Source: Caloramator sp. (GTDB lineage Bacteria; Bacillota; Clostridia; Clostridiales; Caloramatoraceae). Taken from it: a stretch of DNA of 39,425 nt. Position 1 is the stretch's first letter. Each line of letters starts with the position of its first letter. The DNA lies in NCBI GenBank assembly GCA_026417075.1, contig JAOADY010000159.1, positions 1-39,425 on the forward strand, in the 5' to 3' direction. Below are positions 32,692 through 38,611 of this stretch, piece by piece. A model generated the notes under the pieces. It had not been told where the DNA came from and searched no databases. It saw only the letters and a list, made by a program, of their open reading frames with translations. The position numbers and the translations under genes were made by a program.

Positions 32692-33669
32692 ATGAAAATA
32701 GGCAGTTTTACTCCTGAAAATAATGTATTTTTAGCTCCTATGGCTGGAGTTACCGACAAAGCATTTAGAATAATTTGTAAAGAATCAGGCTGCGGACTTG
32801 TTTATACCGAAATGATAAGTTCAAAAGGTCTTGCATATAACAGTACAAAAACTAAGGATATGATAGATATAGATGATAGGGAAGCCCCTGCAGCTGTTCA
32901 GATTTTCGGCTCTGAGCCTGAAATTATGGCAGATACTGCAAAAACAATAAGTGAGAATACTGATGTAGCCTTTATTGATATAAATATGGGCTGTCCTGCA
33001 CCAAAGATAGTTAAAAATAATGAAGGCTCAGCTCTTATGAAAGATATTCATCTTGCAGAAAATATTATAAAAAGAGTTGTTGAAAAATCAAATAAACCTG
33101 TAACGGTTAAATTTAGAAAAGGATGGGATGATAATCTTATAAATGCTGTTGAATTTGCAAAAATGGCTGAAAGTTCCGGAGCAGCAGCTGTAACAGTTCA
33201 TGGGAGAACAAGGGCTCAGATGTATGAGGGAAAGGCTGACTGGGACATTATAAAAAAAGTTAAAGAAGCAGTTAAAATACCTGTTATAGGGAATGGGGAT
33301 GTTATATCTCCTGAAAGTGCAAAAAAGCTTTTCGATGAAACAGGATGCGATGCTATAATGATTGGACGAGGGGCTCTTGGAAATCCTTGGATTTTTAAAA
33401 GGGTTCTGCATTATTTAAATACTGGAGAGATAATAAAAGAACCAAGTTTTGAAGAAAAAATAGATATGGCACTTATTCATCTTTCTATGGCTGCTGAATT
33501 TAAAGGAAGAAGAGGCATTATAGAGATGAGAAAACATATTGCATGGTATTTAAAGGGATTAAAGAATTCAACATCTATTAAGGATACTATAAATAAATTG
33601 GACGATAAAGAAGAAATTGAAAAGGTGCTTATTGATTATAAGAGAGCACTTATGGAGGGCTATATTTAG
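32692..33669 (+). CDS. dusB: tRNA-dihydrouridine synthase B-type
   Basis: A 325-residue FMN enzyme that reduces uridines in the tRNA D-loop. The TIM-barrel core begins VFLAPMAGVTDKAFR. The catalytic cysteine is Cys101 in INMGCPAPKIVKNNEGSALM. VTVHGRTRAQMYEGKADW and IGNGDVISPESAKKL bind FMN, and MIGRGALGNPWIFK ends the barrel. A helical RNA-binding domain follows. It overlaps nothing and starts 8 bp after coaX with AGGTGG as ribosome site. The following inverted-repeat element supplies its terminator. Confidence 0.95.
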   Translation: MKIGSFTPENNVFLAPMAGVTDKAFRIICKESGCGLVYTEMISSKGLAYNSTKTKDMIDIDDREAPAAVQIFGSEPEIMADTAKTISENTDVAFIDINMGCPAPKIVKNNEGSALMKDIHLAENIIKRVVEKSNKPVTVKFRKGWDDNLINAVEFAKMAESSGAAAVTVHGRTRAQMYEGKADWDIIKKVKEAVKIPVIGNGDVISPESAKKLFDETGCDAIMIGRGALGNPWIFKRVLHYLNTGEIIKEPSFEEKIDMALIHLSMAAEFKGRRGIIEMRKHIAWYLKGLKNSTSIKDTINKLDDKEEIEKVLIDYKRALMEGYI

Positions 33670-33692
33670 CACTTAAATTGTTTAGAAAGGTG

Positions 33693-33880
33693 TAAATCCA
33701 TAATACTGCAGTTAATCATTACCGCTTATTTAGAAGCTCTAAGACTTACTACTTTGAATGCTAAGAACTTTTGGAATTCGCTTTGTTCAAACAACCAAAA
33801 GTTCTAAGTTTTTTTGCGTCAGCTTCGTTGAGAGCTTCTAAAATTTGCTTTATATTGGGTTTGGCAGTATTATGGGTTTA
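33693..33880. repeat. Nested inverted-repeat element (MITE-like or structured RNA)
   Basis: Three concentric inverted repeats in 188 bp. Outer: 33693-33709 against 33864-33880, 17 bp with one G-T pair (the + strand reads TAAATCC... and ends ...GGGTTTA). Middle: TTTAGAAGCTCT (33729-33740) against AGAGCTTCTAAA (33831-33842), perfect. Inner: AGAACTTTTGG (33764-33774) against CCAAAAGTTCT (33795-33805), followed by T7, which can terminate dusB. It has no coding potential. The outer ends begin and end with TA, the target of Tc1/mariner/IS630 elements. This supports a MITE origin but does not prove it. Confidence 0.7.
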
Positions 33881-33887
33881 AATTTTA

Positions 33888-33939
33888 TATTGAAAAAATA
33901 AAAAAAAAGGTATAATATGAAATTGGGCACATTATGTGC
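33888..33939 (+). promoter_or_regulatory. Promoter and operator-like palindrome of the HTH operon
   Basis: TATAAT lies at 33911-33916, with a weak -35 (TATTGA at 17 bp or TTGAAA at 15 bp). GCACAT-T-ATGTGC (33927-33939) is a perfect 6-bp palindrome just downstream of the expected start point and just before the ribosome site GAGGAGG. It could be bound by the HTH protein encoded next (inference). Confidence 0.5.
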
Positions 33940-33954
33940 ACGAGGAGGAATAAT

Positions 33955-34479
33955 ATGGATTATGTAAGAATAGGAGAAAAAGTAATAAGCATAGAAAGAA
34001 TAAATGATAAAATTAATGATATACTTGAACTTAGATGTAAGGGTTACTCCCAGCAGGAAGTAGCTAAAATGCTCGATATTGATAGAACCTTTATATCAAG
34101 GCTTGAAAGCATGGGAGAAGTACGAAAGGGCGGAGATATTGCAGTAGTAGGTTTCCCTATAAAAAACAAACAAGAACTTGAGGAAAAATTAAAGAAAGCA
34201 GGGGTAGATTATATACTTCTTATGAGCGAAAATGAAAGAATGGATTTTGTAAAAAGTCAAAGCGGACAGGATTTATTTAATGGCATTATCGAATTGATAT
34301 CTGAAGTTAGAAAGTATAAGCATTGTATAATAATAGGCTCAAATAAAAGGATAAAGGTAATGGCTGATCTTCTTGATGGTCATGTATATACAATAGATAT
34401 AGGACAGTCTCCTATAAAGCATGACGTTTATGTTTGCCCTGATAAAATACTTCAAATTATAAATATGATTAATGGTTAG
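33955..34479 (+). CDS. Helix-turn-helix protein of unknown function
   Basis: A 174-residue protein. Residues 15-50 form an HTH of the sigma-like/Xre type (CKGYSQQEVAKMLDIDRTFI). The remaining 120 residues are an alpha/beta domain with GDIAVVGFPIKNKQELEE, VDYILLMSENERM and KHCIIIGSNKRIKV, resembling a small nucleotide- or metabolite-binding fold. I cannot name a family. The ATG at 33955 follows GAGGAGG; an ATG 21 nt upstream lies inside the palindrome. It heads a unit with the next two genes (11 bp to the second) and could regulate them. B. subtilis has a small HTH gene (yazB) near this place before dusB, but that protein is much smaller. Confidence 0.75.
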   Translation: MDYVRIGEKVISIERINDKINDILELRCKGYSQQEVAKMLDIDRTFISRLESMGEVRKGGDIAVVGFPIKNKQELEEKLKKAGVDYILLMSENERMDFVKSQSGQDLFNGIIELISEVRKYKHCIIIGSNKRIKVMADLLDGHVYTIDIGQSPIKHDVYVCPDKILQIINMING

Positions 34480-38562: not shown

Positions 38563-38611
38563 AAAAAAGCTGGTACATTAGTATTTTAAATATTAATGTA
38601 CCAGCTTTTTT
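38563..38611 (+). terminator. Terminator of greA-lysS
   Basis: A long inverted repeat with AAAAAAGCTGGTACATTA against TAATGTACCAGCTTTTTT, an AT-rich centre that pairs further, and A6/T6 flanks. Confidence 0.92.

Follow-up and report, generated by a model that had tools for sequence, protein, structure and literature searches.

The intergenic region downstream of dusB in Caloramator sp. (contig JAOADY010000159.1; the window analysed is the whole stretch of 39,425 nucleotides) contains a 188-base nested palindrome at positions 33693-33880, built from three concentric inverted repeats. Its symmetry raises the question of whether it is a mobile repeat, a structured RNA or the terminator of dusB. 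A preliminary description, made from the window alone, had proposed either a MITE adopted as a terminator or a structured RNA.

Architecture of the palindrome and the end of dusB

The palindrome lies 23 nt downstream of the stop codon of dusB (32692..33669, + strand), which encodes a tRNA dihydrouridine synthase (TIGR00737, 419 bits), and upstream of a small HTH gene (33934..34479, + strand; HTH_3), as the preliminary description had placed it. The TATAAT of the HTH gene (33911..33916, + strand) is kept in most relatives, and the element thus sits between dusB and the next promoter.

The outer arms, TAAATCCATAATACTGC on the left (33693..33709) and GCAGTATTATGGGTTTA on the right (33864..33880), are 94% complementary over 17 nt, and the family consensus for the left outer arm is AGCCCATAATACTGC. 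The 12-nt middle arms (33729..33740 and 33831..33842) are 100% complementary. The core hairpin, AAGAACTTTTGG..CCAAAAGTTCTAAG (33761..33808), is formed by 14-nt arms (33761-33774 and 33795-33808) with 93% complementarity and is the most widely conserved part of the element among its clostridial relatives. All of these features are given on the + strand, as is the run of seven T that directly follows the core (33809..33815) and resembles that of a terminator. The concentric arrangement and the arm lengths of 17 and 12 bp in the preliminary description stand, and its core arm of 11 bp is replaced by one of 14 nt. The + strand folds into the single interrupted hairpin that had been proposed, with a free energy of -60.7 kcal/mol (z -5.75) that none of 200 shuffled sequences reaches, and the - strand is comparably exceptional (z -6.9). 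A covariance model (R1) of 15 full-length copies, of which the window copy is itself one, recognizes positions 33692..33881 (+ strand) as a full-length copy with 189 bits and an E value of 5e-41. A second R1 match in the window (38565-38609) is an ordinary long-stem terminator after lysS, followed by tRNA-Asn and, where the contig ends, a 16S rRNA gene.

The element beside dusB occupies the place of a plain terminator in relatives. Five related genomes (G002, G004, G006, G008 and G010) lack the element at this site and carry a short hairpin followed by T residues instead. Caloramator quimbayensis contains two shorter derivatives there, one of which is a short hairpin with six T that includes the dusB stop codon. 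Comparison with the relatives and folding suggest that positions 33640..33692 (+ strand) comprise the end of dusB and a probable decayed remnant of its plain terminator, which no longer folds well. The core hairpin has a folding energy of -15.3 kcal/mol and is missing from the list of a strict terminator scan because its loop is longer than 8. Judged by position and sequence, dusB transcription would end at this element, and it is plausible that the core hairpin and the seven T replace the plain terminator.

A terminator role would not extend to every copy, and the T run after the core is weak or poor in many of the others. Reversed copies lie in the spacer between the 23S and 5S rRNA genes, in at least four operons of another Caloramator genome (G002, L019:1443-1630) and in two operons of C. 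quimbayensis (L151). The G002 matches were considered as an insertion sequence, which was ruled out, as they are copies of the element in the spacer. Strong termination at this position would be compatible with rRNA transcription only through antitermination, and the element is therefore not an obligate terminator.

Distribution and mobility of the repeat family

The copies were compared in the genome of origin (a Caloramator MAG, G000), C. quimbayensis USBA 833 (G001), G002 and a Clostridiaceae MAG (G020). A blastn search with the 188-base element gave 11 matches in its own genome and 13 and 6 matches in the two congeners. R1 matched 23 times in the genome of origin, 40 times in C. quimbayensis, 9 times in G002 and 53 times in G020. 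These counts include some elements twice, once on each strand, because the structure is nearly symmetric, and the estimated number of elements is ∼15 or more in the genome of origin and ∼30 in C. quimbayensis. By R1, G020 contains more than 50 copies of a structural relative. The arm pattern was found 41 times in the genome of origin, compared with 7 times for a reversed control. The additional copies that the preliminary description had suggested looking for thus exist, as a dispersed repeat with a dozen or more copies in the genome of origin and others in relatives. Its opposite case, a single copy conserved only beside dusB, was not what was found, and a single-copy local RNA is ruled out by the multiple copies in the genome of origin and congeners.

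Relatives were detected in 14 of 226 genomes of the order by a consensus search. Several of them are ∼260-270 nt long and fold with -72 to -113 kcal/mol. Among the named genomes, the core pattern matched in Clostridium ljungdahlii, C. ragsdalei, C. thailandense, C. quimbayensis and the MAG G020. The longer relatives, of ∼270 bp, come from Clostridium ljungdahlii, C. ragsdalei and their allies, and shorter variants of 49-100 bp have lost the centre. No Rfam model, plasmid or phage matched the element, and no description of the family was found in the open literature searched. The Caloramator element is thus one copy of a mobile, hairpin-forming repeat family that is seemingly uncatalogued.

Presence and absence at orthologous positions, which the preliminary description had suggested comparing, were observed at dusB and at three further sites. 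The C. quimbayensis copies L027, L030 and L032 correspond to empty sites in both G000 and G002. Conversely, five of the six full-length copies of the genome of origin have an element at the orthologous C. quimbayensis position, and the elements of four of these pairs are 85-97% identical over aligned positions. At two shared sites (L005/L021 and L004/L015), the element lies in opposite orientations; the near flanks of L004/L015 differ, and this pair could represent two independent insertions. On either side of the L030 copy (L238, G001:C31:11900-12600) lies the native terminator hairpin, duplicated there as a ∼30-bp direct repeat and present only once in G000 and G002. A clean target-site duplication was not seen at the occupied and empty sites compared. 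The element is mobile on an evolutionary time scale. Like a MITE, it is short and non-coding, has inverted repeats, is present in several copies per genome and differs in presence at orthologous sites.

The copies are placed with respect to genes in lineage-specific ways. Of the 32 copies in C. ljungdahlii and C. ragsdalei, 26 are in the sense orientation with their left end beside or over the stop codon that precedes them, at -57 to +16 nt from it. The Caloramator copies are next to a gene 3' end in 13 of 15 cases and show no strict polarity, and no clear preference for gene 3' ends was found in G020. C. ljungdahlii and C. ragsdalei also have a second subfamily, which gives 85-93 matches in each genome (a count that includes other flank pieces of the query) and is often arranged tail to tail with the first. 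Within the C. ljungdahlii group, three gene ends (L172, L201 and L209, with the orthologous loci L301-L309) carry the other subfamily in the sister species. At one of the three, farther species of the genus have a short hairpin and no element, and at one site among these loci the centre is symmetrically deleted. An exchange of the centre only between subfamilies is not claimed, since at two sites the A-type element may be inserted beside the B-type element.

Covariation of the stem and the means of spread

The stem shows concerted changes between copies. Over the 15 copies, standard pairing is seen in 96.4% of cells and 20 of 49 pairs are changed on both sides, values that 0 of 500 shuffles reach, and the signal is abolished when the pairing partners are slid. 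The outermost helix is the most variable and changes mostly in concert, with 10 of its 15 pairs changed on both sides in some copy. In five orthologous pairs at 2-15% divergence, nine double compensated changes were counted against 11 broken pairs. This compensation exceeds the expectation for slow stepwise change, which makes template switching in palindromes a fair alternative to selection. The arms would thus remain complementary through compensated changes, which template switching inside the palindrome or selection for its fold could each produce. The two alternatives of the preliminary description, MITE and structured, are in this respect both right: the element is a dispersed mobile palindrome with real covariation.

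The strong covariation might instead belong to a functional RNA, such as a small RNA or an mRNA 3' element, that is selected at each site and owes its number to recruitment. Such an RNA would also fit the strictly sense-oriented copies at C. ljungdahlii and C. ragsdalei stop codons and the conservation of three orthologous pairs, which are 91-97% identical when most non-coding flanks are 76-85% identical with many gaps. This explanation is nevertheless quite unlikely, given the inverted copies at shared sites, the centre-deleted variants, the empty sites in close relatives and the failure to match any Rfam family. Moreover, double changes nearly as common as broken pairs are what template switching would give without selection.

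The preliminary description had also pointed to the TA at both ends as the mark of a Tc1/mariner/IS630 insertion. TA does occur at both ends of the window copy, but only ∼5 of 15 copies have it at both ends, so it is not a rule of the family. An origin as a MITE of such an element, with a TA target duplication and ends recognized by a DDE transposase, would agree with the window copy, a few others and the C. ljungdahlii relatives, which often start with TATAG and finish with CTATA. It is highly improbable because a DDE_3 (PF13358) transposase is absent from the three Caloramator genomes and G020, the L030 site shows no TA duplication between its occupied and empty states, and the sequences of the two ends change together rather than being conserved like a transposase site. 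The search for an IS630-family transposase with matching ends was accordingly negative in these four genomes, and no gene enclosed by a pair of element arms was apparent in pattern scans. The repeat RUP has an IS630 partner, whereas none was found for the clostridial element.

HUH enzymes act on folded single-stranded DNA. Mobilization by Y1 (HUH, RAYT-like) transposases, as for REPs, would therefore fit the combination of conserved structure and variable sequence, and Y1 proteins of ∼303-310 aa are numerous in Caloramator. Nonetheless, palindromes of this family do not flank the Y1 genes: none of the 20 Y1 loci read contains the arms or core of the element, and the conserved flank that most of them have in common is a different one. 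C. ljungdahlii, which is rich in the element, has only two Y1 matches, and movement by Y1 enzymes is very unlikely. Many Caloramator Y1 genes (L251-L270) are preceded by a conserved GGGACGGTTACTTATT. A mobilizer was thus not found among the transposase types examined (DDE_3 and Y1). One further proposal, also unlikely, is a class of clostridial hairpins that a new enzyme would recognize and spread by way of their folded structure instead of conserved end sequences, targeting transcript 3' ends with a fixed polarity; arms and centres could change while the concentric architecture is kept.

The best explanation, to which we assign a probability of roughly 0.75, is that the element belongs to a non-autonomous family of interspersed palindromic repeats, MITE-like in the way that ERIC is, which has spread in Caloramator and is structurally related to repeats of other clostridia. 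Copies of this repeat would be inserted by a separate activity acting in trans and would be retained chiefly at gene 3' ends, where they cause little damage. There, the transcript or single-stranded DNA may fold into the long hairpin, whose core and T run could act as a terminator or shield the end of the mRNA. At dusB, the element would have taken over the place of the short plain terminator kept by relatives.

Relation to known repeats and implications for clostridial genomes

By its kind, this is a new ERIC-like or MITE-like repeat family, comparable to ERIC and Correia elements, with a concentric structure and, in some of the clostridia, a marked polarity toward stop codons. ERIC folds as one long stem-loop (PMC2267715) and in some cases lies at the 3' end of a gene, where it affects the transcript (PMC10969869). 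The Caloramator element resembles ERIC as a dispersed intergenic repeat of tens to hundreds of copies that forms a single long hairpin and has no transposase of its own. This likeness is one of kind, and no sequence kinship is claimed. ERIC is 127 bp long and belongs to another phylum, whereas the clostridial element measures 190-270 bp. Strong polarity toward stop codons further sets its Clostridium relatives apart from ERIC.

Correia elements of Neisseria are palindromic MITEs that can invert in place and yield an RNA hairpin cleaved by RNase III (PMC10969869). They share with the clostridial element the palindromic, MITE-type organization and the apparent inversion in place. Correia elements, however, lie mostly just upstream of genes (PMC10969869), whereas the clostridial element is mostly 3' of genes and its ends vary with compensation. 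SPRITE is terminator-like; SPRITE, RUP and BOX of Streptococcus pneumoniae insert into one another, and QMITE2 of Coxiella prefers 3' untranslated regions (PMC10969869). These repeats differ from the clostridial element in sequence, size and host. Clop-1 of C. perfringens and Clot-1 of C. tetani are stem-loop repeat families of clostridia (PMC2267715); they differ from the Caloramator element in their length of 93 and 74 nt.

The element beside dusB thus represents an apparently unlisted repeat family common to clostridial genera, including industrial acetogens, in which many gene 3' ends consist of its relatives. Such a family would have consequences for the prediction of terminators, for assembly and for the stability of mRNA. 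The precision with which the C. ljungdahlii and C. ragsdalei copies start at stop codons makes it possible to test whether genes acquire their ends from mobile elements.
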